Below are positions 453-62,464 of a DNA stretch of 64,000 nucleotides, piece by piece. The notes beneath the pieces are model-generated. The model was not told the origin of the DNA. It saw nothing but the letters and a program-made list of their open reading frames with translations, and made no database searches. The first letter of the stretch is position 1. Every line of letters begins with the position of its first letter. The translations under genes were made by a program, and so were the position numbers. Origin of the DNA: Typha latifolia (lineage: Eukaryota; Streptophyta; Magnoliopsida; Poales; Typhaceae); assembly GCA_019914945.1 (NCBI GenBank), contig CM034109.1, positions 3,410,001 to 3,474,000 of the forward strand, given 5' to 3'.

Positions 453-499
453 TGGTGGGTTGATACACCTTGTTAGAGTCTTTTTTTATTGCTTTCGAA

Positions 500-715
500 C
501 ACGGAAGGGGTCGCGTTTGAATGCCTTTACGAATGCCTGCATCAGGTTTGCAAAAATAGAGAACGCAAAATATGCATTCGAATGCGATCAGGCGCGTTCG
601 AATGTCTGCATCAGGTTCGCATCGATAGAGAATGCCTTTTATGCGTTTGAACACGATCAGGTGCGTTTGAATGCGATCGGGTGCGTTCGAACGCGATCGG
701 CGGGAGTCCACTAGA
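500..715 (+). repeat. U3 array of GCGTTCGAACGC palindromes
   Basis: About six perfect or decayed GCGTTYGAAYGC units, separated by GATCGGGCGC-type spacers and by two copies of a TTCGCAnnnATAGAGAA segment (near 545 and 615). The best-kept unit is at about 682-693. The array ends ~45 bp upstream of the TATA box, as in the other LTRs of this family. Confidence 0.85.
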
Positions 716-757
716 ATTAGGGTTAATTATTATTATTTTGGCTTGTTGGCTAGCCTC

Positions 758-763
758 TATAAA
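758..763 (+). promoter_or_regulatory. LTR TATA box
   Basis: TATAAA inside CCTCTATAAAGGTGTGGAT. The same context is kept at 62457 and, on the reverse strand, at 16642 and 58724, which supports it as the LTR core promoter. Confidence 0.7.
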
Positions 764-13939: not shown

Positions 13940-14562
13940 TTGCAGAAGGTTAGGGCAAGTGTTGGATAGATTGGAAGAAGGGGAAGGAGAGGGCCGCCGC
14001 CCCTAACGGTCTAGGGTGATTGGCCGGTCGATTGAGGTTAGAAGCGGCGTCGCCGGGGATTGAGAGAACGAGAGCGAAGAAGACGAAGGAGGCAAGGCAA
14101 AACTCAATTCTTCAATAATAATCTTTTGGTTGCCATCCACATCCCTTTTAGAGGCTAACAAAACAACTCAAAATTAACCCTAAAGAATACAATTTCGCCG
14201 ACCGCGTTCGAACGCGCCCGACTGCATTTGAACGCACCGGGTTCGCTCTTCTCTAGATTTGTGAACGTGATGCAAGCATCGAACGCATGATTGAACGCGC
14301 CTGTTTTCCACTTCTATGGATTTACGAACGCGATGCAGGCGTTCACAGTGCGTTCGAATGAGGCATTCGAACGCACAATACACACTCTCACAACCCGTTC
14401 ACAACCGTGTTCACAACCGTGTTCGAACTCACTCCATCCGCGTTTGAACGCAACTTACAGAAAACTTCTTTTCTTGGAAATTAAACTTTAAAACAAGAAA
14501 CAAAGACACTCCTAAAGTGAATCCATGCTTAAGACGACATCGGTGAAGTCCGAATCGTATCA
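13940..14562 (-). mobile_element. Chromovirus LTR of subfamily L2, reverse, truncated
   Basis: Reverse-strand match to the LTRs at 20311-21226 and 48508-49276: the GGTTAGGGCAAGTGTTGG region, the GTCGCCGGGGAT segment, the TTGCCATCCA leader and the TTCGAA array. Similarity ends at GTATC near 14562, about 13 bases before the expected LTR start. Confidence 0.75.
14195..14450 (-). repeat. U3 TTCGAA palindrome array (L2 LTR)
   Basis: Perfect unit GCGTTCGAACGC at about 14203, plus decayed GCGTTYGAAYG units to 14450, mixed with TTTGTGAACGTGATGCA and GGATTTACGAACGCGATGCA segments. On the reverse strand it lies just upstream of the presumed transcription start. Confidence 0.8.
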
Positions 14563-16154: not shown

Positions 16155-16957
16155 ACGTCCTCTTCAATATTTGGATTGATTGCAGGAAGCAGTTCGTGCA
16201 ACCAAGGGAAAATATTCACCAAATATTCTTCCGTACTTAGATTCGGAAGTGGTCAATTCGTAACTTTCTAATCTACATTTTTGGCATTGATGCCTTTCAC
16301 AAATTCGGACTGCAACTGGGACGAAAATACACCATAATGGGGATAATGGTGGTGGTAATGGGTGGAGAGGATGATAGGTTTATGGATGATAATGGAGATA
16401 AGGGTGGATTGTTGATGTAGTTTAAGGAATAAGGACGAAGAGGGAGAAGTGGCTGAGATCCCAAGGAGGAGGGACGACTCGATAGATGAGGAGGTTAGAA
16501 GATAGATGAGACCTTGCCAACGGTAGAGGTGGCTGGTTGGTGAAGAGAAGAGGGAGATTAGGGTAGAGAGACTAGAGAGAAGATAGAAGAAGATAGAAAC
16601 CAATATTCATTCATCATAATGATTTTGGCTGCCATCCACACCTTTATAGAGGCTAGCCAACAAGTGAAAATAACAATTATTAACCTTAATACTAGTGGAC
16701 TCTCGCCGATCGCGTTCGAACAGGGTCGACCGCATTCAAATGCATAAAAGACGTTCTTTGTGGATGCGAACTGATGCAGGTGTCGAATGCGCCCGACCGC
16801 ATTTGAATGCACATTTTGCATCTATTTTTGCAAACTGATGCAGGCGTTCGCAAAGGCATTCGAACGCCCCTTCGGCATTCGAACACGACCTATAGAAAGT
16901 TTATTTTTCTAAAAATAAACAACTAATGCAATAAGAAAAGACTCTAGCAAGGTGTAT
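16155..16957 (-). mobile_element. Family A chromovirus LTR, reverse
   Basis: Sense start near 16957 (GACTCTAGCAAGGTGTAT on the plus strand, a few bases lost), TTCGAA array at 16690-16880, TATA box (CTTTATA) at 16642-16648, R/U5 to about 16155. The U5 end matches the end of the LTR near 8416. It follows the truncated integrase of another element at 16958. Confidence 0.8.
16690..16880 (-). repeat. U3 TTCGAA palindrome array
   Basis: CGCGTTCGAACAGG at about 16717 and four to five decayed GCATTYGAAYGC units, interleaved with two TTTGTGGATGCGAACTGATGCAGG-like segments. It lies ~45 bp upstream of the reverse TATA box. Confidence 0.8.
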
Positions 16958-20310: not shown

Positions 20311-21226
20311 CAACAGTGATACGATCTCCCCTTTTTGGCGAAGGCTCAATCTATTCTGATTTTCATCTCTGGACAGAATTTGACATGAAAATTTTAAAAT
20401 AGATCCCGAACGATGCTGCCGTCGAATAGATGTGAGATTTTGATATGTCGCAGCCCCGGAAAAGAGCTTTCCAACAAATTAAGTTTCAGGTGAATCGGAT
20501 GTAGTGATCCCGAGATATCGTCCGATTAGTGGATGAACATCAGGGGATCTGTCTTAGGATCTGTGGATGGTGGCACGAGATCCTAGGTGATGGTGGATGG
20601 TGGTGGACCAGCGTTAATGGGTGGCACTGATTAATAAGTGGTGGTGGAAGGGTTATGGGTGATGGAAGGGTTAGGGCAAGTGTTAATTAGATTGGAAGAG
20701 GGGGAGGAATGGGCTGCTTGTCCCTAAGGGACTAGGGTGATTGGCTGGTCGAGGGAGGCTAGAAGCGGTGTCGCCGGGGATCGAGAGAATGGGAGCAAAG
20801 AAGACGAAGGAGACAAGGCAAAAACTCAATTCATTAATAATGATTCCATGGTTGCCATCCATACCTTTAGAGGCTAACCAAACAATTCAACAATGACAAT
20901 TATTGACCGTAAAATAGTAGATTTTGCCGATCGCGTTTGAACGCATATTTTACATTCTCTGTATTTGCGAACCTGATGCAAGTGTTCACAAGCGCGTTCG
21001 AACGCACTCCATCTGTGTTTGAATGCACATTTCGCATTTTCTATTTTTGCGAACCTGATGCAGGCGTTCACAAGCGCGTTCGAACGCACTCCATCTGTGT
21101 TCAAACACAACATACAAAAAACTTATTTTTTCTATGAAATAAACACTAAAATAAGAATAAAAGACACCCCTAAAGTGTATCCATGCTCGAGACGTCATCA
21201 GTGAAGTCCGAATTGTATCAATCCAT
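20311..21226 (-). mobile_element. Chromovirus LTR of subfamily L2, near-complete
   Basis: Sense start TGATGGATTGATAC at 21226, preceded on the plus-strand right side by a purine tract (21227-21240) and a CCTTGAGGAC block. Sense end GATCGTATCA near 20313. About 915 bp. It contains the TTCGAA array (20925-21115) and the leader shared with 13940-14562 and 48508-49276. The TATA context is weak here (CTCTAAAGG). Confidence 0.75.
20925..21115 (-). repeat. U3 TTCGAA palindrome array (L2 LTR)
   Basis: Two near-identical ~85-bp blocks, each with GCGTTCGAACGC plus a TTTTTGCGAACCTGATGCAGG-like segment (perfect units near 20992 and 21077), with flanking decayed units. The block duplication is direct evidence of recent tandem growth. 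Confidence 0.85.
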
Positions 21227-23062: not shown

Positions 23063-23520
23063 ACATTGAGGAGTACATTTATTTCAGGGCTGCGGGATGA
23101 GATACAAGCGGATGTTCGTACTCTATGTCCTACTTCTCTTGAGGAGGCCTTTGAGAAGGCCATGAGGATGGAACAAAAGCATAGGGCTCTAAAGATGGCA
23201 GCGAAAATAAATTGCGGCAACCGAGATGGGCGATTTGCATCTAGAACGCTAGCTGAAAATTTTGCGGTTTTAAAAATAGCGGCTACGAGTACTAGACCAT
23301 GACCACCTTTGAGACCTTCTTCTGATGTTCAAGGAAGCACAAGACCCCCCCGTTCGAACTCTCACACTTGCCCAGGTGGAGGAGCGAAGACCGAAGGGCC
23401 TTTGCTTTCGATGTGATGAGTGTTTCACCCCTGGTCATCGGTGTTCTCAACCGATCGGGAGTGTGATGCTTATTGACGGTATTGAGGAAGATGATGAGGT
23501 TGTTGATGATTGAGAGTGTC
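23063..23520 (+). pseudogene. Chromovirus gag C-terminus with zinc knuckle
   Basis: Forward. It begins abruptly at TFISGLRDEIQADVRTLCPTSLEEAF, continues with MRMEQKHRALKMAAK, and ends with the Cys-His knuckle CFRCDECFTPGHRC (about 23403-23444) and the MLIDGIEEDDE linker. A TGA at 23511-23513 interrupts. The gag N-terminus, PBS and 5' LTR are absent. Confidence 0.85.
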
Positions 23521-26805: not shown

Positions 26806-27058
26806 TGGACTGTTTCCCCAACTTAGATAGGATCTTTGCTTATTGCATTAGGTGTTTATTTTCATTAAAATAAAATTTCTGTAGGTCTTATTGGAATGCA
26901 GGAGGGGTCGCGTTCGAATGCCCTTGCGAACGCTTGCATCAGCTTCCCAAATACAGAGAACGCATATTGTGCGTTCGAACGCGGTCGGGCAAGTTCGAGC
27001 GCCCGCGTTCAAATTCCTACATCGCGTTCACACATACAGAGATTGTCTTTTAGTCGCC
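26806..27058 (+). mobile_element. Chromovirus 3' LTR, U3 only
   Basis: Begins TGGACTGTTTCC. It matches the LTRs at 28179 and 62187 through TAGGATCTTT...TTCATTAAAATAAAATTTCTGTAGG, then carries a TTCGAA array (26905-27040) with a clean GCGTTCGAACGC near 26972. Similarity stops at about 27058, before the TATA region. Confidence 0.75.
26905..27040 (+). repeat. U3 TTCGAA palindrome array (truncated)
   Basis: GCGTTCGAATGC, GCGTTCGAACGC and CAAGTTCGAGCGC units with two ATACAGAGAA motifs (near 26955 and 27037). Confidence 0.8.
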
Positions 27059-28247: not shown

Positions 28248-28440
28248 GGTCGCGTTTGAACACAGGAGGGATCGCGTTCGAATGCCCTTGCGAATGTCTC
28301 CATTAGATTCCCAAATACAGAGAATGCGTAATGCGTGTTCGAACGCGGTCGGGCGCATTCGAACGCCGCGTTCGCACATACAGAGAATGCCTTTTGTGCG
28401 TTCGAACGTGATCGGGCGTGTTCGAACGCAATCAGCGAGA
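28248..28440 (+). repeat. U3 TTCGAA palindrome array
   Basis: At least six units, including GTTCGAACGC at about 28340, 28361 and 28399, interleaved with two ACAGAGAATGC motifs (near 28316 and 28379). The array ends ~50 bp before the TATA box. Confidence 0.9.
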
Positions 28441-28491: not shown

Positions 28492-28499
28492 TATATATA
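28492..28499 (+). promoter_or_regulatory. LTR TATA box
   Basis: TATATATA in the conserved context TAGCCTCTATATATATGTGGATGG. Confidence 0.7.
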
Positions 28500-48507: not shown

Positions 48508-49276
48508 CATACACTTTAGGGTGTCTTTATTCTTGTTTTAGCATTTATTTCATAGAAAAATAAGTTTTCTATATGTCGCGTTTGAACACGGATGGAGTGC
48601 ATTCGAATGTGCTTGTGAACGCTTGCATCAGATTCGCAAATATAGAGAATGCAAAATGTGCGTTCGAACTCGGTGAAAATCTACTGTTTTAGGGTTAATA
48701 ATTTCATTTTTGAATTGTTTGGTTAGCCTCTAAAGGTGTGGATGGCAACCATGGAATCATTATTGATGAATTTGAGTTTTGGCTTTGTCTCCTTCGTCTT
48801 CTTCGCTCCCGTTCCCTCGATCCCCGGCCATGCCGCTTCTAACCTCCCTCGACTGGCCAATTACCCTAGTCCCTTAGGGGCGGCCCTCTCCTTCCCTTCT
48901 TCCAATCTATCCAACACTTGCCCTAACCTTTCCATCACCCATAACCCTTCCACCACCACTTATTCACTGGTGCCACCCCATTAACACCGGTCCACCACCA
49001 TCCATCATTATCTAGGACCTCGTGCCTCCATCCACGAATCCTGATCAGACCCCCTGATATTTGTCCACTAATTAGATGATATCTTAAGATCCCTACATCC
49101 GATTCACCTGAAATGATTTGTTGGAAAGCTCTTTTTCGGGGCTACAACATATCAAAATCTCACATCCATCCATTGACGGCATCTTTCAGGATCTATTTTC
49201 AAAGTTCCGTGTCAGATCCTGTCCAGATCTGAAAATCGGGATAGATCGAACCTTGGCCTAAGGGGAGATCGTATCA
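48508..49276 (+). mobile_element. Chromovirus LTR of subfamily L2, plus, start truncated
   Basis: Enters at CATACACTTTAGGGTGTC (about 55 bp inside the LTR), TTCGAA array 48575-48690, leader with the TGGATGGCAACCATGG segment, U5 ending GATCGTATCA at 49276. The 82-codon frame inside it (48736-48984) is leader sequence, not a gene. The LTR end abuts a copia gag fragment exactly. Confidence 0.8.
48575..48690 (+). repeat. U3 TTCGAA palindrome array (L2 LTR)
   Basis: GCGTTTGAACACGG, GCATTCGAATGTGC and GCGTTCGAACTCGG units around one TTCGCAAATATAGAGAATGC segment: the smallest array in the window. Confidence 0.8.
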
Positions 49277-52817: not shown

Positions 52818-52954
52818 TGTTAGATCTTTAATTGTTGGCAATTGTGTACAAAATATTCCAAGTGTATTTTTACATGTATATGAGCTTTATACAAGTCTAG
52901 AATATCTCTGGTTTGAAGAATTGCAAGATTATTGGAGAAAAGCTGTTGAGTTCA

Positions 52955-53125
52955 CACCGCGTTCACAAACACGTTCGAACGCGGGTACTTGCGTTCACAC
53001 AGACCGAGAGCTGCGTTCAAAAACGCGTTCGAATGCAACCTGAAGAATTCAAGTTTCGCATTCGAACGCACTCGGGCCCGTTCGAACGCACCTGAGATCA
53101 AGTCATGCCGTTGGAACGCACCAAC
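52955..53125 (+). repeat. U3 TTCGAA palindrome array in a copia LTR (5' copy)
   Basis: CACGTTCGAACGCGG (near 52972), CGCGTTCGAATGC (53023), GCATTCGAACGC (53060) and CCGTTCGAACGC (53079), with GTTCACACAGACCGAGAG between. The last unit has decayed to CGTTGGAACGC (53110). Confidence 0.9.
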
Positions 53126-53193
53126 GAAGTTTGAAAATATTGGATTCTCGTGAGTTCGGATAAGACTTGGATTTGGCTCTATCTTGGAGATCA

Positions 53194-53200
53194 TATATAA
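53194..53200 (+). promoter_or_regulatory. Sirevirus LTR TATA box
   Basis: TATATAA about 70 bp after the array; the 3' LTR has TATAA at 60576-60580 in the same context. Confidence 0.7.
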
Positions 53201-53668
53201 GGATTGTGATGCCCTATATCTCTAAGGTGGTTGAAGAAGCATTATTGAAGGAGACTTCTTGAGGCTACATCAGTTCTTCAACTAACAAGGTTCTACTCAT
53301 CTACAAAACTTAATATTTCATCTTAAGGGCTGTCTAGACGAAAGATCAATATCGAGGGCTACTGAGGTTGGACTTTAATCACGAGAAGCAGTGAATCGTG
53401 TGTTCAAGCAAGCAAGACTGAGAGGAACAAAGTCGTTTGGATTGACGGGTTATTTTGTGAGTCAGTCTTGTAACTACTACTATACTAATATTTGGTTTTG
53501 ATCCGAGTTTGGATCCATGGTTTTTTCCCGTTTAGATTTTTCCACGTTAAAATCTTGGTGTTCATCTCTGTTTTCGTTCTTAATATTTTTACGGACTTTT
53601 ACTTAAGGGAACGAGTGATATCATTGCCTAGTATTTAGATACGTACTTGTGTCTAGGGGTTTTTCAAT

Positions 53669-53680
53669 TTGTATCAGAGC
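53669..53680 (+). promoter_or_regulatory. Sirevirus primer-binding site (tRNA-iMet)
   Basis: TTGTATCAGAGC, one change from TGGTATCAGAGC, two bases after the LTR end. It is single, unlike the chromovirus sites. Confidence 0.85.
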
Positions 53681-53717
53681 AGGTTCTCTCACCCTTTGAG
53701 AGAGATCAGAGATAGGC

Positions 53718-54702
53718 ATGGATTTTCATAGAGATGGACCATCATCTATTAGACCTCCTATCCTAGATGGATCAAATTATGGATATTGGAAAGCTAGGAT
53801 GAGAGCTTACTTGAAGTCTATAGATGAACGAGTATGGTTTGCAGTTGTGAACGGTTGGAGTCCACCAATGTACATGGTGGATGATAAACTTGCTGAAAAA
53901 CCGATAGAGTCATGGGATAGGTCAGATTATGAAAAAGTTGGATGGAATAGCAAGGCAATAAAAGCAATTTTTAGTTGTGTTTCTTTGGAAGAATTTAGAA
54001 GAATTTCTACTTGTGAGATAGCAAAAGAAGCTTGGACGATCTTAGAAACTACTCATGAAGGAACTATGGCTGTAAAACTTTCGAAACTTCAGAGGTTGAC
54101 TACTAGTTTTGAAACTCTACGTATGGAGGAGAATGAGACATTTGATGAGTTTCATGCAAAGCTGAGTGATGTAGTCAACTCCAGTTTTAACCTAGTAGAG
54201 AAAATTCTTGAAAACAGAATTATCCGTAAGATCCTTAGGTCTCTTCCATAGAGGTTTTAGGCGAAAGTTACAGCTATTGAGGAAAGTAAGGACATCGATT
54301 CTATGAAAGTTGAACAATTGGTAGGAAATCTACAAACATTTGAGTCAGAGTCTTTCAAAACAGAGGAAGTCCAAGGATTGCCCTATTCACAGTTCAACAA
54401 AATATAGAGGTGTCTAATGATGAAGGTGATTTAGATTCTTTCGGAAGCCAAACAAGTTGAATGCTAAAAAACTTGAGAAAAGCAAAGCCTTTGTGAAAAA
54501 GAAGAATACTGTGAGTTCAAATACAGGTGTGAGCAACAACAGTGTCAAACAGAAAAATAAGAATTCTGAAAATAAAGTTCGATGTTTTGAATGTTCTGGT
54601 TTTGGACACATAGTACAAGAATGCCCTAATTGCCTTAAGAAGAAGGGTAAAGCTATGAAAGTTTCTTGGGATGACTCAGATGAATCTGATGATGATTCTT
54701 AA
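53718..54702 (+). pseudogene. Sirevirus gag, first part with zinc knuckle 1
   Basis: ATG at 53718, 37 bp after the PBS. Open for 177 residues: PPILDGSNYGYWKARMRAYL (capsid start), ERVWFAVVNGW, AWTILETTHEGT and LQRLTTSFETLRMEENE are typical copia gag landmarks. TAG at 54249. The following part (EESKDIDSMKVEQLVGNLQTF) continues in another frame; a deletion near 54440 removes residues kept in the fragment at 49277. Basic linker, then knuckle CFECSGFGHIVQEC (54583-54624) and acidic tail SWDDSDESDDD, stop at 54700-54702. Confidence 0.85.
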
Positions 54703-55548
54703 AAAGACGAAGAAAACTTTGTAGCTTTTGCCTCTTCTCTACTTAATATTGATTCTGTTGTTGATACTGATAGTACAGATGATCAGGATATGTTACCAGC
54801 TGAGGAAGATGAATCTGAAATTCAAAAGGCATATAATGACTTGTACCTGGAGTCATTTAAACTCAAGAAAAGTAATCTTAGACTACTTCAACGACTCAAG
54901 ATAATCGAACCAGAAAGAATTCAATTTGAGGAGAAGTACAAATTGGAACTTGAACGTGTCAAAGACCTTTCTGAACAAGTTGACAATGTAAAAAATAAAA
55001 TGAAGGCTGATGAAATTGAACTAGAGCGACTGAATAAGGAAGTGACATTTCTAAAAGGGAAGAACAAACTTGATGAGATTCTAAAGGCTCAGATCTTTGC
55101 AAAAGACAGGTATGGTGTTGGATACACTAGTAATTCAAATAATAATAAAACTGTCTTCGTTTCTACAGGTATACAAAAAGAAGAATATCTGAAGTCATTA
55201 ACTGCATTTACAAAGCAATCCTGGATTAATGCTTCTAAACTGAAGTTGAATTTACAAACTGGTGAATCTTCAACGGCACCAAAGGTAAACTTTAGTCACA
55301 CTCGACAAAAGGTGAGTAGAAAACGGTTTGTTCTGACATGCTATCATTGCGGCATTGTAAGGCATATTCGACCTCATTGCAAATTTTTGCAAAAGCGTAG
55401 AAGTGCTTTCATTTATGGGATGAAAACAAAGGCCATATGGGTCAAGAAAAGTGGTTTGAAATGTTATGTTGTGCATACAGCCTTGAAAGCTTTAAATTCT
55501 GATTTGCGGTGTTTAGACAGTGGCCGTTCAAGAACATATGTCAGGTGA
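54703..55548 (+). pseudogene. Sirevirus gag, coiled coil and zinc knuckle 2, into protease
   Basis: In frame after the stop: DEENFVAFASSLLNID, then open from 54790. Residues 10-100 of this frame form a Lys/Glu/Leu-rich coiled coil (LKKSNLRLLQRLKI, LERVKDLSEQVDNVKNK). The second knuckle CYHCGIVRHIRPHC is at about 55340-55381. The protease active site LDSGRSR lies at about 55514-55534 with DSG intact, then a frameshift. Two knuckles flanking a coiled coil are a Sirevirus gag trait. Confidence 0.85.
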
Positions 55549-56609
55549 CAAGTCGTTATTTTCTAATCTTGAAAAAACATGAAGGGGGAGTTGTGACATT
55601 CGGAGATGGTAATTCATCCAAGGTAATAGGTAAAGGAAAGGTAAGTTCTCCGGGGGTTCCTATTCTTGAAAATGTTATTTATGCTAAAGGCTTGAAAGCA
55701 AATTTTCTGAGTATCAATCATGAGCAAGATTATGAGGTAAAATTCTCCGAAAATGATTGCACTATTCTAGATCATGATGGTAATGTTATATATTATGGAT
55801 CTAGAATATCTGAGAATTGCTATATTGTTGGAACGTCACATAAACTGAAATGTAACAGTATCTCTTTCTACATTGCAAATCTTTGGCATCAACGTCTTGG
55901 ACATGTGAATCATAAGGAATTATTTACTCTGTCCAAACAAGAAGTGGTAAGAGGAATACCTAAGATGAAATAAATGTCAAAAAGAGTGTGATTTGTGTCA
56001 AATTGGAAAACAAATTCGGATCTCACACAAGAAGGTAAATGCAGCTACCACCGATTGTGTGCTTCAATTAGTTCACATGGACTTGATGGGTTCAACAAAA
56101 ACGGAAAATCTTGGAGGTAAACGCAATATATTCTTAATGGTCGATGATTACTCCAGATATACCTAGATTGCCTTTCTACGTGAGAAGTCTGAAACCTTTG
56201 AAGTTTTTAAATCACTGCTTAAAATTGCAAAATGAAAAATCTACTACGCTAGTTAGGATTTGTTCTGATCATGGAAGAGAATTTGAAAATGAATTTTTTT
56301 TCTATATTTTGCGATTCTCTTGGTATTCAACATGAATTTTCAGCTCCTATAACTCCACAACAGAACGGGATTGTGGAAAGAAAGAACTGTGTTGTGCAGG
56401 AAATGGCTAAGGTTATGCTTCACGCTAAAAAGGTTACTCAAAGGTTTTGGGCAGAGGCGGTCAATACAGTGGTACATGTGATAAATCGTGTTTATCTAAG
56501 ACTAGGTATAAAAATGATTGCATATGAAATGTGGAAAGGTAAGAAACCTAGTGTTAAATATTTTCGCGTTTTTGGTAGTAAATGCTATATATCGAAAATA
56601 TTTGACTAA
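55549..56609 (+). pseudogene. Sirevirus protease end and integrase
   Basis: GGVVTFGDGNSSKVIGKGKV (55580-55640) is the protease end. Integrase: zinc-binding LWHQRLGHVNHKELF (His pair, 55883-55925), stop at 55971-55973, then CDLCQIGKQ (Cys pair). Core: HMDLMG (first Asp, 56078), SDHGREFENEF (second Asp, about 56264), and TPQQNGIVERKN (Glu, about 56353-56388). All three catalytic residues are still encoded, but a TAG near 56165 and frameshifts near 56225 and 56290 break the frame. Confidence 0.85.
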
Positions 56610-57336
56610 ATTTGACACTAGAAGTAGCGAAGGCATCTTCTTAGGGTATTCTAATAATAGCAAAGCCTACAAAGTATTAAATTTTGACACTTCTACTGTT
56701 ATGGAATCTGCTAACGTTATGATAGATGAATCCACGATAGATATAACTGAAGCTACTCTTAATTTTGTTTCTGAAGATACATATGACGAAGAAATAAGAA
56801 AGGAGCTTGATCTGAAAATTGAGAATCAGGACGAGGGCAAAGTTGAAATAAACAAAGATGACTGCAATGTACCGGAACCATCTACCAGAGTGAAAACAAA
56901 TCATCCACTGTCACAAGTAATCGGAGACGTGAATGAACCAATTAAGACAAGACGACAAATCCAAAGTGAGGTATCATTTACTTGTTATATATCTTCTTTT
57001 GAACCTAAAAATATGAAGGAAGCATTGTTAGACGATTCTTGGGTTAATGCTATGCATGAGGAATTAGAGCAATTTTCTAGGAATGATGTTTGGTATTTAG
57101 TTCCTAGACCTAAGAATGTGAACGTCATTGGAACAAAATGGATTTACAAGAATAAAAGTGATGAACATTGCAATATAGTTCGAAATAAAGCTAGACTAGT
57201 AGCACAGGGATATACTCAGGTTGAGGGTATAGATTTTGATGAGACATTTGCTCATGGTGCTAGATTAGAGTCTATTCGTATACTGCTTGCTATTGCATGT
57301 CATTTAAAATTTAAATTGTTTCAAATTGAAAGTGAA
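56610..57336 (+). pseudogene. Sirevirus integrase tail and RT N-terminus, truncated before the active site
   Basis: Open from about 56585: RSSEGIFLGYSNNSKAYKV, the acidic linker with TRVKTNHPLSQVIGD, then RT: DDSWVNAMHEELEQFSRNDVW, GTKWIYKNKSDEH, NKARLVAQGYTQVEGIDFDE, LESIRILLAIACHLKFKLFQ. It stops at 57336, just before the segment that would hold the first RT catalytic Asp. The sequence then switches to chromovirus gag on the other strand. Confidence 0.85.
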
Positions 57337-58247
57337 GGCCCTTTGCCCTTCGGTCCTCCAACTGGGCAAGTGTGAGAGTTCGAACAGGGGATCTTGTGCT
57401 TTCTCTAACATTAGAAGAAGGTCTCAAAGGTGGTCGTGGTCTAGTACTAGTAGCCGTTGAACCTACAGAATTTCTAGCCAGCGTTCTTGGTGGAAACCAC
57501 CCATCTCGGTTGCCCTAACTTGTTTTCGCTGCCATCTTGAGAGTCTTATGCTTTTGCTCCATCCTAACAGCCTTCCCAAAGGCCTCCTCAAGAGTGGTAG
57601 GACAGAGAGCACGCCCATCTCGACTTTGTGCATGTTGATCTCCTTCTCTAAATCCTCCAACTGGCCCATCACCATCTTCGAAGGGATCAACATCATCCGC
57701 TAAGTGCTAATCCTCTTCATCAACGAAGCGCACCGGTGCCGCACACCTCTCGTGTTCCACCACTGCCGGTCTTGGGTTTTGTATCAAAGGTGAGCGATGA
57801 TCATTGACCCTAACATGTCGCACCTGGACTTGTGGGGTATCAGTTCAGTACGGTGCCACCGCTGGTCCTTCTTGAGGCACCAATTTTCGTCAAGGAGATG
57901 ACGAAGCTGATTGGTTCATGACATATTTCTTTAAAGCATTATGATCATTCTGCATTGCGTCAACCCTATGCAGCAATGTTTGGAACCAGCCCCTAAGTTC
58001 TTCTGCCAAGCTCATGTTCACACCCATGGATGTTGGTTGACTCGGTCCTACTGTGGTCGCTCCAAAGGAATCGACCTCACGGTTAGAGTTATCGTGGATT
58101 GAGTCTTCCTTTGTCGGTGTGTTCTCCATTGAACTTCTTATTGATGCCCTCTTCCTTGTTTCCACCATTAATGGAGGTCTGAGGTTCGCCTGACTTTGAT
58201 ACCAATGATAGGGGTCTACGGTACCAAATTGATAGGCTCTGATACTA
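57337..58247 (-). pseudogene. Chromovirus gag fragment inside the Sirevirus, reverse
   Basis: Reverse strand. KRASIRSSMENTPTKEDSIHDN, LRGWFQTLLHRVDAMQNDHN (open 58258-57890), RHEVCGTGALRC-like piece (57740), then a deletion joins the middle of gag (57625) to the MRMEQKHKTLKMAAK region (57565-57520) and the zinc-knuckle approach RTPVRTLTLAQLEDRR (57385-57340). PBS repeats lie at 58193-58247. Confidence 0.8.
58193..58247 (-). promoter_or_regulatory. Three reiterated primer-binding-site units
   Basis: Plus-strand view: ACTTTGATACCA (58193-58204), a decayed TCTACGGTACCA (58215-58226) and GCTCTGATACTA (58236-58247), spaced 22 and 21 bp, directly inside the LTR end at 58248. Confidence 0.75.
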
Positions 58248-58805
58248 ATGATAGGCAACAGAACGATTCCTTTAAGATCTTAATTTATTGCAGGAAGCAG
58301 TCCATCGAAGGAAACTATTCACCAAATATTCTCCCATAGTTAGAAAATTACCAAACCAAGTGGAATCGATTTGTAACTCCCTCATCTATGTTTTTTATGT
58401 TTACGTCCTTCATAGATTCGAATTGCACTTGGGACAAAAATATGATATATTGCGGATGATGGTGGTGGTGACGGGTGGAGTGGATGTTAGGGTTATGGAT
58501 GATAATGAAGATGAGGGTGGATGCGTTATGTGGTCGAGACCCAAAGAAAAGAGAGGACTCAACAGACGAGGGAGATTAGAAGTTAGGAGAGACCTTGCCA
58601 ACAGTAGAGGTGGTAGGTTGGTAAAGAGGGAGGAGGGGGATTAGGTACAGAGACTAGAGAGAGGATAAAGTCGGCAATAAACCAATATTCATTAAGTATA
58701 ATGATTTTGACTGCCGTCCACACCTTTATAGAAGCTAGCCAATAAGCCAAAATAATAGTAATTAATTCTAATTCTAAAAGACTCCCGCTGATCACGTTCA
58801 AAGGC
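58248..58805 (-). mobile_element. Chromovirus LTR (R/U5 and TATA), reverse, cut in the U3 array
   Basis: Sense end at 58248. U5, leader, and TATA box (CTTTATA, 58724-58730) match the other family A LTRs. The remaining bases after GACTCCCGCTGATCACGTTC are the first array unit, where the sequence switches back to the copia element. Confidence 0.8.
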
Positions 58806-59700
58806 ACCCAATGCTACTATTATGGATCAGTGTCTGTGTATCTAGACTCTGATGTCATTCGAGTAGAGTTTCGTCTTCCATCTAGCGATTTTGAATACCC
58901 TTCCTCTGAGCTTCTTCCTTCTGTTCAGTATATTGCTGGTGATATTTTAGGGGAAGAGTGGATAGGCAATATGATGCCTCATGCCAAGCTGACTTCAGTG
59001 GCTCACATGTTACACCTTATCTGTCTCTACAATGTCATTCCAAAGACTCAGCACTCCAGCATCAATTAGGATCGGGCGTTTCTCCTTCACGCGATGCTTA
59101 CAGGCGTATCCATTGACATTGCCACCGTTATTTATGATAGCATTGTGTCAGCTGCAAGAAAAGAGACCCCCATGAAGGTTTGCCATTTGGGATCTTCATT
59201 ACCAAACTGTGCATGCAGAGTGGTGTGAGAGTTGATTCGTCAGAAGCTTCGGTTAAGGCTCAAAAACTATTGGATCGTTTCACCATGAAGAGGAGTCAAG
59301 CTCATGATCCACCATCTCCTTATAAACCGACCTCCTCTTCTGTAATTAAACAACGATCACACCAGAAAATCTCCTTTGAGGATAGTTCTGATGATGAATC
59401 ATATCAACCTGAGGGAGTGTTTCAGTTTATGACTGAATGGTTTGATCAGCTTAGCACTCAGGTTCATGATTTACAATTGGCAATTACTGCATTTTCTGGT
59501 ACTGCTGCGGAGATACGGGCTGAGCAAGCTCGTTAGGGGACGGTGCTTGATTTTGTGTTGTCTATCCTCCATCACCATTTTCCTCCTAGTGCTCCTAGTG
59601 CTTAGACTTTGGAAATTTGTGTCAGAAAGGGGGAGAGTGAGTGAGAGATCAAATTTAGAGGGAGTAGGGAATTTTGTTTAGGAGGAGTAAGGAGTGAGTT
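58806..59700 (+). pseudogene. Extra 3' ORF of the Sirevirus, putative plant transposon-protein-like domain
   Basis: 58830-59069 is open (GDILGEEWIGNMMPHAKLTS, then MLHLICLYNVIPKTQHSS); a stop and then AFLLHAMLTGVSIDIATVIYDSI in the same register; a frameshift leads to GLPFGIFITKLCMQSGV and an acidic, Ser-rich tail ending in DQLSTQVHDLQLAI (59180-59536). The layout resembles a domain often annotated as putative plant transposon protein in plant retroelements (from memory, not searched). It lies between pol and the 3' LTR, where some Sireviruses carry an extra ORF. Function unknown. Confidence 0.6.
59626..59637 (+). promoter_or_regulatory. Upstream polypurine tract
   Basis: AAAGGGGGAGAG about 355 bp before the 3' LTR. 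Several copies of such tracts before the 3' LTR are a reported Sirevirus feature. Confidence 0.6.
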
Positions 59701-59980
59701 GCATTAGCATCTGCTTTATTTGTGTTATTTTGTATATTGTGCTGAATGCTTAGTTTAAATGAAAATGTGTTGCTTTGCGTTTATGATAATTTAAGTTTAG
59801 ATCCTATGTGTTTACTGTTTATAATTTTGTATGATCTTACTTCAAGTTATTTTCACTTGATTTTGATTTGGTTTATTTTCATTTGCAAGGATTGAAGTGT
59901 TACATCTTTTTAGACTTGTTGAATACTCATTTAGAACTCTTTATAATTTTTGTAAACTAGATATTTTGTCACAAATTGCC

Positions 59981-59991
59981 AAAGGGGAGAT
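59981..59991 (+). promoter_or_regulatory. Polypurine tract adjoining 3' LTR
   Basis: AAAGGGGAGAT directly before TGTTAGG at 59992. Confidence 0.85.
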
Positions 59992-61020
59992 TGTTAGGTT
60001 TTCAGTGTTATGTACAAAATATTCTAAGTGTTTTTATACATGTACATGAGCATTTATACAAGTTTTAAAAGTATTTGGATTGAAAAATTTCAAGATCAAA
60101 GCAGAAAAGTTTCTAATTTGCACTGCGTTCGAACGCGCTCCCAGGGGTTCACACATACAGAGAACGTGTTCTGAGCGTTCGAATGCGTGTACAGACGTTC
60201 ACACATTCAGGCCGTTCGAATGCATTCACACATATAGATAATGCGTTCGGGCCATTCAAACGCGTGCAAATACAGAGAACTTTTTTCTACCATTCTAACG
60301 CAGTAAAGGGCCGTTCGAATGCACCCTGCATACGTTCATAGCATGTTCACACATACAGAGAGGAGTGCATTTGCGCGTTCAAACTCAACCAGTGAAAATC
60401 AAGTCATCGTGTTCGAATGCACTTGGGCCTGTTCGAACGCACCAGAGAACAAGTTAGCTCGTTCGAACGCGGCGAACGCAGTCCGGCCGCGTTCGAACTC
60501 ACCTGCGTAATATGCAAATTTTGGACTTATGTGAGTTCTGATATGACTTAGATTTGGCTTTCTCTTGGTTACAGATATAAGCATTGTGATGCCCTATCTC
60601 TAGGGAGTTCTTGAGGAGACATCGTTTCTTCTACCAACAAGGTCCGTCTCTTCTACATCACAATAAGCTTTCGTCATAAGGGTCATCTAAACGAAGGATC
60701 AATCTCGAGGGCTACTGAGGTTGGAGATCAATCACGGGAAGCAATGAATCATGGGTTCTAGTGAGCAAGATTAAGAGAAACAAAGTCGTGGGGATCGATG
60801 GGTTGTTTTGTGAGTTAGTCCTGTAACTGCTACTATTTTAGTGATTAGTTTTTATCCGAGTTTGAATCTGTGGTTTTTTTCCCGTTTGGGTTTTTCCACG
60901 TAAAAATCTCAGTGTTGTTCTTTGCTTTTGTTTTTTAATATTTATTCCTCATTTATTTAAGCAAAGGAGTGATATCATTTCCTAGGGGTTAGATACATAT
61001 GTATGTCTAGATTTTTTTCA
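59992..61020 (+). mobile_element. Sirevirus 3' LTR (1029 bp)
   Basis: TGTTAGG...TTTTTTCA. It is collinear with the 5' LTR but 180 bp longer, nearly all of it in the TTCGAA array (60120-60510). The TATA box is at 60576-60580. Confidence 0.9.
60120..60510 (+). repeat. U3 TTCGAA palindrome array, longest copy
   Basis: About a dozen units: GCGTTCGAACGC at about 60125, GTTCGAACGC near 60438 and 60462, and decayed units near 60177, 60213, 60255, 60316, 60410 and 60489. They are interleaved with four or five TTCACACATACAGAGAA-type motifs (60149, 60192, 60226, 60346). Confidence 0.9.
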
Positions 61021-61564
61021 AAAAGTAAATTAAAAATTATATCATTGGACCTTCACTGTAGTAAGAGAAACCATTGATTTTAATGTTTGAGTAGGATAAT
61101 TTCCTAATTAAAGTCGAGTCATATTCAATGTTAGATACTTTTTGGAGTTCCATATGGATGTCTATTGATAATCGGATCATTGAGATGCCAAACCATATGT
61201 CGTCTATTTAGGGGTTGTTTGGTGTGATGTTTCTAAAGATGGTGCGTCGACATATATTTTGAGTATAATAATTTGATAATGGATCGGAGTTAATATACTG
61301 TATATTGACATCCATTCAATTAGACTGAACATTAAAATGTAGTTTCTCCACTTCAATGAAAAGGGAAGGGAGCTCTACCTCATTAAAAGGAAACTATACC
61401 ACTTTTTTTAACTATTATTTGGTACAAAATTTGATAATTGTTTGCTAGTAATGTTCTATATTTTACATTATTTTTGTAAGTATTTTGTATCCCCAAAGTC
61501 ACTCAATTTTATTCAAATCACTCACAACTCAGGTGGAATGATGGCTTTTACATTAAGTTAGGTA
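61021..61564. other. Unclassified AT-rich interval
   Basis: It separates the Sirevirus 3' LTR from a chromovirus protease fragment. It does not continue the RT interrupted at 52817. GGGGTTGTTTGG at about 61212 recalls a DNA-transposon end, but no partner end is visible. No coding signal. Confidence 0.45.
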
Positions 61565-62186: not shown

Positions 62187-62267
62187 TGATATATTTAGTT
62201 AGGATCTTTTCTTATTACATTAGGTGTTTATTTTTATTAAAATAAAATTCCTGTAGGTTGCATTTGA

Positions 62268-62400
62268 ACGCAGGTGGAGTCACGTTCGAGCGCCCTTGTG
62301 AACACCTTATAAATGCCTTGTGAATGCCTGTGTTCGAATGCCTATGTCGCATTCGCAAATCCAGAGAAGGGGCTTTTTGAGTGCGTTTAAACGCGATCGA
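62268..62400 (+). repeat. U3 TTCGAA array, strongly decayed
   Basis: CATTTGAACGC, CACGTTCGAGCGC, TGTTCGAATGC and GCGTTTAAACGCG units with one TTCGCAAATCCAGAGAA motif. No unit is perfect. Confidence 0.7.
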
Positions 62401-62456: not shown

Positions 62457-62464
62457 TATAAATA
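62457..62464 (+). promoter_or_regulatory. LTR TATA box
   Basis: TATAAATA in CTAGCCTCTATAAATATGTGGATAGC. Confidence 0.7.

Follow-up and report, generated by a model that had tools for sequence, protein, structure and literature searches.

We analysed a 64,000-nucleotide stretch of Typha latifolia DNA (the window; contig CM034109.1 of assembly GCA_019914945.1, positions 3,410,001 to 3,474,000, or C11:3410001-3474000 in our numbering) in which long terminal repeats (LTRs) of Ty3/gypsy and copia retrotransposons carry arrays of the same 12-bp palindrome, GCGTTCGAACGC. Scanning the window with up to two mismatches allowed and shuffled sequence as the control, we found 49 palindrome matches versus an expectation of 0.63 (largest shuffle count, 3), as well as 11 matches to a second sequence, TTCRCANATACAGAGAA (motif 2), versus 0.13 in shuffles. 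A preliminary description had placed clusters of both motifs at ten LTR places, and all ten are present. These ten arrays hold 47 of the 49 palindrome matches; eight belong to Ty3/gypsy elements and two to one Sirevirus-like copia element, and the remaining 2 matches are isolated, at 23350 and 38179. The arrays, most of them annotated in the unique 3′ (U3) part of the LTR, are as follows.

491-694, plus strand: gypsy LTR U3 palindrome array, 7 sites; TATAAA at 758-763
14204-14451, minus strand: array of 6 palindrome sites in the U3 of a gypsy LTR on the same strand; consensus TATA not found
16712-16886, minus strand: array of 3 palindrome sites in the U3 of a gypsy LTR on the same strand; TATAAA at about 16643-16648
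20933-21087, minus strand: array of 3 palindrome sites in the U3 of a gypsy LTR on the same strand; consensus TATA not found
26910-27043, plus strand: gypsy array, 2 palindromes and 2 motif 2 copies; consensus TATA not found
28252-28429, plus strand: gypsy LTR U3 palindrome array, 6 sites and 2 motif 2 copies; TATATA at 28492-28497
48578-48671, plus strand: array of 2 palindrome sites plus one motif 2 in the U3 of a gypsy LTR; consensus TATA not found
52971-53119, plus strand: copia 5′ LTR palindrome array, 5 sites, one pair 20 bp apart with spacer ACTCGGGC; TATATA at 53194-53199
60125-60500, plus strand: copia 3′ LTR palindrome array, 9 sites, motif 2 three times (60148, 60225 and 60346); TATAAG at 60576-60581
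62260-62394, plus strand: gypsy LTR U3 array, 4 sites (one core changed) and one motif 2; TATAAA at 62457-62462

Apart from the copia element, the window elements were assigned to Ty3/gypsy on the strength of LTR alignment with two further loci, L059 and L067, which carry gypsy coding sequence. The window gypsy copies are themselves broken, and gypsy reverse transcriptase (RT) pieces are present among them. A plus-strand reading stands for the other window arrays, but those starting at 14204, 16712 and 20933 belong to minus-strand LTRs. The gypsy and copia LTRs were said to be otherwise unrelated, and this was borne out: when three gypsy LTRs were compared with the two copia LTRs, every match with E < 0.01 fell within the arrays.

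Position relative to the TATA box

The stretch 110 bp beyond the last palindrome was scanned in 41 arrays (L001, the same array as L002, was dropped). A TATA-like box lies 20-88 bp past the last palindrome in the LTR sense in 32 of the 41, versus 4 of 41 in the same scan in the opposite sense. The distance differs by lineage, at 20-31 bp in Tork-like copia elements, 48-63 bp in gypsy (except L002, 88 bp) and 74-75 bp in Sirevirus-like elements. The description of the window arrays as lying upstream of a TATA box was upheld in part: the scan gives a box in the LTR sense in 5 of 10, at 62-75 bp, and the array at 62260 has one 62 bp past its last, weaker site (read from the sequence), but the remaining four have no consensus TATA in the 110-bp stretch. 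Genome-wide, there are 537 cases of TATAAA at 36-65 bp downstream of an exact site, versus 148 of its reverse complement, TTTATA, in the same band; a wider TATAWA search gave 962, with some sites counted twice. In many aligned gypsy LTRs a telobox-like sequence, TTAGGGTTA, lies between the last palindrome and the TATA box (for example, at window 491-760).

Distribution in the genome and among lineages

The genome searched (G000; 214.19 Mb, 62 contigs) contains 14,944 exact copies of GCGTTCGAACGC and 0 copies of the same word reversed. A receptor-kinase gene at locus L069 of this genome is most similar to date palm (67%) and other monocot sequences. The exact sites among the matches listed all lie on contig C1 and form 24 clusters, from which we examined nine loci (L002-L004 and L070-L075), all from one chromosome arm and thus a small sample rather than a survey; five 10-kb stretches were taken at random in addition, and two of them (L065 and L067) contain arrays. 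All 11 arrays from these two samples beyond the window resemble LTR U3s: six are gypsy (L002, L065, L067, L070, L071 and L072), four Sirevirus-like (L003, L004, L073 and L075) and one Tork-like (L074), loci without coding sequence being assigned by eye from LTR likeness. We saw no exact site outside an LTR-type array in the nine loci and five stretches. Isolated two-mismatch matches do occur, at L067:8808 as well as at the two window positions, and the flank of one further site among the matches listed (C1:5380740) could not be classed. One scan of IMG/VR for a viral source returned 0 exact paired palindromes.

These results bear on two doubts that the preliminary description had raised about its own claim. 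That the motif might be frequent outside LTRs is not what we found in this small sample, and that it might be confined to one lineage, with the copia LTR acquiring it by a gene conversion local to the window, does not agree with 14,944 exact sites genome-wide. Nor are the copia arrays peculiar to the window, since the four Sirevirus-like LTRs (so classed by likeness) and the Tork-like lineage also carry them.

We also looked for the array within 1.5 kb of RT at the 30 best-scoring copia and 30 best-scoring gypsy loci among the matches listed, a test that says nothing where the LTR falls beyond the examined stretch, as expected for complete gypsy elements. Of the 30 gypsy loci 16 have the array near the RT, and of the 30 copia loci 4. 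With no palindrome site within 1.5 kb at the other 26 copia loci, LTRs in this genome do not carry the array as a rule; the loci lacking a nearby array suggest that it is a property of particular families. The four array-bearing copia loci make up one of 12 RT clusters at 80% identity, and the 16 gypsy loci all fall in one RT cluster of 21. The third lineage with the array is a Tork/Tnt1-type copia (L027-L029 and L033); second in the list of matches to its RT, with 78% across the full query, is a protein of Linum perenne that bears the name TNT 1-94 pol.

The many-copy gypsy family deserves separate description. L059 has a gypsy RT (RVT_1) with gag and RNase H, and its array starts about 140 bp past the end of the RNase H frame, with integrase absent between. 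The array lies at much the same distance from RT in the other 15 gypsy loci, so the family looks like an integrase-less derivative, and its apparent lack of integrase would make it dependent on a partner. The order in L059:2062-3250 and the 15 like loci is gag, protease, RT, RNase H and then the LTR array, the full reading having been made in L059 only. A further family (for example, G000:C1:14866850-14866903) has palindromes in pairs 22 bp apart and its TATA box some 14 bp beyond the second one. By our reading, 15 of 100 matches listed, variants included, are of the family with the form palindrome-GCAGACTGGT-palindrome-ACTCGAGGATTCTTTATATA; by eye, no RT place lies within 6 kb of its rows among the matches listed. 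An array-bearing Sirevirus-like LTR, at L003:1370-2560, is situated about 0.6 kb upstream of a gene start and points away from the gene, which we take to be a UGT85-like glycosyltransferase.

Beyond its two arrays, the copia element of the window has the following parts.

52833-53667, plus strand: 5′ LTR of the Sirevirus-like copia element, ends set by eye
53718-54251, plus strand: copia gag piece (PF14223)
56518-57375, plus strand: copia pol piece; it contains an SH3-like domain and the beginning of RVT_2, which a nested gypsy piece truncates
59981-59991, plus strand: polypurine tract (PPT) preceding the 3′ LTR; upstream of the tract is CACAAATTGCC, the left arm of an inverted repeat
59992-61021, plus strand: 3′ LTR of the copia element, ends set by eye

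Copia gag and RVT_2 (PF14223 and PF07727) are thus both present. By eye, the PPT/LTR junction is of Sirevirus type, with AAAGGGGAGAT followed by TGTT, and CACAAATTGCC pairs with GGCAATTGTG at the start of the 5′ LTR; the 3′ LTR copy differs. Looking for several PPT copies upstream of the 3′ LTR, we found that the purine runs at 59624 and 59981 are alike and that three further runs are weak. The two LTRs are about 72% identical and their arrays measure 149 bp and 376 bp; to judge from the sequence, the LTRs are old or mosaic. A minus-strand gypsy sequence (window 57320-58811) is nested in the element and interrupts its RT.

Architecture and conservation of the arrays

Neighbour spacings and CpG content were measured in 24 arrays, in which L059 alone represents the 16 integrase-less gypsy copies and the Tork lineage is represented by 3 of 5 arrays. 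Pairs of palindromes 19-22 bp apart are frequent, accounting for 23 of 49 neighbour spacings of 12-70 bp in gypsy, 7 of 41 in Sirevirus-like and 13 of 23 in Tork-like arrays. The main spacings are 19-22 and 41-43 bp in Tork, 20-21, 30-34 and 53-55 bp in Sirevirus, and 19-22 and 48-61 bp in gypsy. Within pairs, the gap is GGTCGGGC or GATCGAGT in some gypsy pairs and ACTCGGGC or ACTCGAGCC in Sirevirus; that of the outer Tork pairs, GCCCYGAGG, resembles the gypsy and Sirevirus gaps only if reversed. Exact pairs number 276 genome-wide with gaps of 8-9 bp and 1,028 with gaps of 10-32 bp. Ladders of 53-55 bp occur in Sirevirus arrays, and in the Sirevirus-like L004, which has 16 sites in all, twelve sites lie 55 bp apart (L004:1501-2117), each unit with a motif-2-like piece, which shows array growth by duplication. 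The units are thus copied locally, with spacing set by family and not by one rule.

The core of motif 2 is A[TG]ACAGAGAR, often flanked in gypsy and Sirevirus by the half-sites GTTC and GAAC. We counted the core with at most one mismatch in 15 gypsy, 6 Sirevirus-like and 3 Tork-like arrays, sampled as above. Gypsy arrays gave 10 sense and 3 antisense matches (sense in 7 of 15 arrays; shuffle mean, 0.5), Sirevirus-like arrays 12 sense and 0 antisense (all 6 arrays; shuffle mean, 0.4) and Tork-like arrays 3 sense and 7 antisense (shuffle mean, 0.2); the Tork antisense matches probably come from a CT-rich run. A description of motif 2 as a split palindrome (GCGTTC-N11-GAACGC) was rejected, as it fits gypsy and part of Sirevirus but fails for Tork.

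For a test of core conservation, gypsy LTRs were aligned to L059 with MAFFT, and 7 of the 12 non-reference rows were used (L043, L065, L067 and W14204 were left out as near the reference, and W26910 for its wrong orientation). The core letters TT..AA are unchanged in 124 of 132 cells (94%) of the seven LTRs versus 728 of 1209 other non-CpG cells (60%); the pooled p of 3e-17 is overstated, given the non-independence of the cells and a possible bias of the aligner towards repeats. The sites look as though they were preserved between lineages and then decayed with nothing to maintain them, the course expected of promoter sites in elements that die once inserted.

Interpretation of the shared arrays

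From the sequence and position of the sites, we lean towards the view that the arrays are U3 enhancers that would be bound by a dimeric host factor and are used by unrelated families, which may have gained them by exchange or convergence. A host transcription factor would bind the palindrome as a dimer, and motif 2 would be a second site that works with the palindrome. Clusters of these sites just upstream of the TATA box would recruit the factor to the LTR promoter, and one host factor could drive, or at least gate, unrelated families. Local duplication in tandem would lengthen the arrays, and once the element has inserted their sites would decay, with C-to-T at CpGs accounting for about half of the changes. 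If one factor binds the arrays, its removal or induction should shift copia and gypsy activity together, a common control that is directly testable, and the roughly 15,000 exact sites would form a large sink for the factor and a source of new promoters near genes. A bolder version, in which the palindrome is the main promoter enhancer of several Ty1- and Ty3-type lineages, motif 2 has been passed around as a mobile U3 cassette and much of the retrotransposon load hangs on a single regulator, is one that we offer tentatively and would not bet on.

Several observations weigh against an enhancer shared through one host factor. A consensus TATA box is absent within 110 bp in 9 of the 41 arrays (L065, L070, L072, L073 and five window arrays). 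In the conservation test, 5 of 7 rows passed p 0.05 singly, the reference was a single one and MAFFT may favour palindromes. Across 254 sites, CpG transitions make up 134 of 268 changes, and changes fall in both arms of 17 sites, the left arm only of 54, the right arm only of 60 and neither arm of 123 (p 0.22); changes in one arm are not coupled to changes in the other, and these sites thus give no hint of compensatory maintenance. Other pairs in the same arrays lack the shared spacer core (gypsy, GGGTGGAGT; Tork, CCCCAGCC and CACCCCTCCT), and gypsy and Tork arrays have no common words of 12 bp or more outside the palindromes, shorter ones not being in excess. Spacing, finally, is not strictly helical: among the matches listed, 27 of 50 distinct places with pairs 22-44 bp apart show 34 bp, which is no whole number of turns, and the best periods in a scan differ by group (10.0, 10.4, 8.4, 11.2 and 10.2; L001 dropped), so strict helical phasing was rejected as a rule.

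How unrelated families came by the same sites may have its answer in descent, to which we give a little under an even chance: a U3 piece with palindromes and motif 2 would have passed between Sirevirus and gypsy elements by template switching, gene conversion or nested recombination and been reshuffled later, with an enhancer function still possible. With the palindromes masked (shuffles keeping base composition only; L059 again standing for its 16 copies, and 4 of 5 Tork arrays included), gypsy and Sirevirus arrays have in common 19 words of 14 bp (shuffle mean, 0.04), 18 of them in the same orientation, and 8 of 16 bp (0 in 50 shuffles). Two 20-bp words together form ACGTTCGCACATACAGAGAAC, and the longest identity, 21 bp, joins the gypsy LTR L071 to the Sirevirus-like L003; within the window, the arrays at 26910 and 60125 have 17 bp identical in the same orientation. 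The core TCGGG or TCGAG common to some paired palindromes also fits descent. Against it, we found no common block longer than single motifs, the flanks differ and gypsy and Tork overlap only in palindromes. Sirevirus and Tork have one common 14-bp word (shuffle mean, 0.02). Unmasked, the longest common words are 24 bp for gypsy and Sirevirus and 18 bp for gypsy and Tork, much of this being palindrome.

Separate gains of the sites under selection for the same host factors would account for the lineage-specific layouts and for gypsy-Tork sharing that is restricted to the palindrome. There is a precedent for such convergence in the heat-responsive elements of several Brassicaceae COPIA families, as described in the accessible part of PMC5059998. 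Even so, 21 identical bp in motif 2 is a long stretch to ascribe to convergence alone, and we rate this origin as plausible but somewhat less than an even bet.

A role in silencing or RNA structure seems unlikely to us. Inverted repeats in U3, and thus at the 3′ end of the element RNA, could be a source of small RNAs; alternatively, methylation could start from the CpG-rich array. CpG observed/expected is 0.98-2.47 in the 24 measured arrays and 1.49-2.42 in the six Sirevirus-like ones. Bousios and co-workers (2016) have reportedly linked Sirevirus LTR palindromes with small RNAs. However, a 12-bp perfect palindrome without a loop makes a poor hairpin, and both the position upstream of the TATA box and the letters that are preserved exceed what a hairpin needs. 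A neutral short tandem repeat, spread in LTRs by slippage and carried by amplification, would agree with the 53-55 bp ladders and varying spacings but is very improbable given the same 12-mer in three lineages, the mostly unrelated spacers, the U3 location in the loci read and the conserved palindrome core.

Comparison with known systems

Our literature search (titles and starts of abstracts, with subscription journals mostly outside it) found no report of the GCGTTCGAACGC word in LTRs, nor of one palindrome common to copia and gypsy elements. The BI and BII boxes of Tnt1, in the lineage of L028, are short U3 repeats, one of them palindromic, and are likened here by description only. A VOZ-type site, GCGT-N7-ACGC, is not supported, as the gap here is 4.

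Known DNA-binding proteins offer one lead. LIN54 recognizes TTYRAA, and TSO1 and CPP1 are said to retain its base-recognizing tyrosines and most of its backbone contacts, according to the accessible text of PMC4974476. The common core forms among our 254 sites are TTCGAA, TTTGAA and TTCAAA; TTCGAA and its CpG-decay forms all fit TTYRAA, the consensus of the cell cycle genes homology region (CHR) bound by LIN54/TSO1-type CXC proteins. A LIN54/TSO1/CPP1-type CXC protein is therefore a candidate for the factor, as a lead from this fit. However, in that text the CHR is known from cell-cycle gene promoters, and it leaves the GCG/CGC flanks and motif 2 unexplained.

The heat-responsive elements in the LTRs of ONSEN and other COPIA families (PMC5059998) are likewise clustered host-factor sites gained repeatedly by separate families. 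They are built of nGAAn units, and TTCGAA lacks the two-base gap of nTTCnnGAAn; the accessible part of the paper describes Copia families, and gypsy sharing was not seen there. A heat-shock element (alternating nGAAn with two-base gaps) was accordingly rejected for our sites, in which TTC and GAA are adjacent in the word.

The closest likeness is to the repeated motifs (RMs) of Sireviruses (Bousios et al. 2010; PMC2829016), whose accessible text also contradicts the statement in the preliminary description that no LTR enhancer of this form had been described. RMs, described from 13 Sireviruses, are palindromic and multi-copy, lie within the first half of the LTR and form CpG islands a short way upstream of the TATA box; there are at least 8 per element, an average of 37 bp from the TATA box. 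Like them, the sites described here are palindromic and present in many copies (9 in the 3′ LTR, 5 in the 5′ LTR and 16 in L004) in a CpG-rich setting before the TATA box, although the distance in the window copia element is 74-75 bp versus 37 bp. For Sireviruses the same text describes a PPT that precedes AT and TGTT, and an inverted repeat spanning the PPT/3′ LTR junction; the junction seen here matches, and, as far as that text goes, the window copia element fits the described Sirevirus picture except for the core: this is CGG-CCG in 12 of the 13 RMs (ACAATCGATTGT in Tnd-1) but GTTCGAAC here. RMs were also reported there to be specific to Sireviruses and absent from classic copia elements, a specificity that fails in this genome, where gypsy and Tork-like LTRs carry the same GCGTTCGAACGC array. 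Palindromic repeats before the TATA box are thus already known in Sireviruses; what is new is a different palindrome word and its sharing by Sirevirus-like, Tork-like and gypsy elements of one genome.

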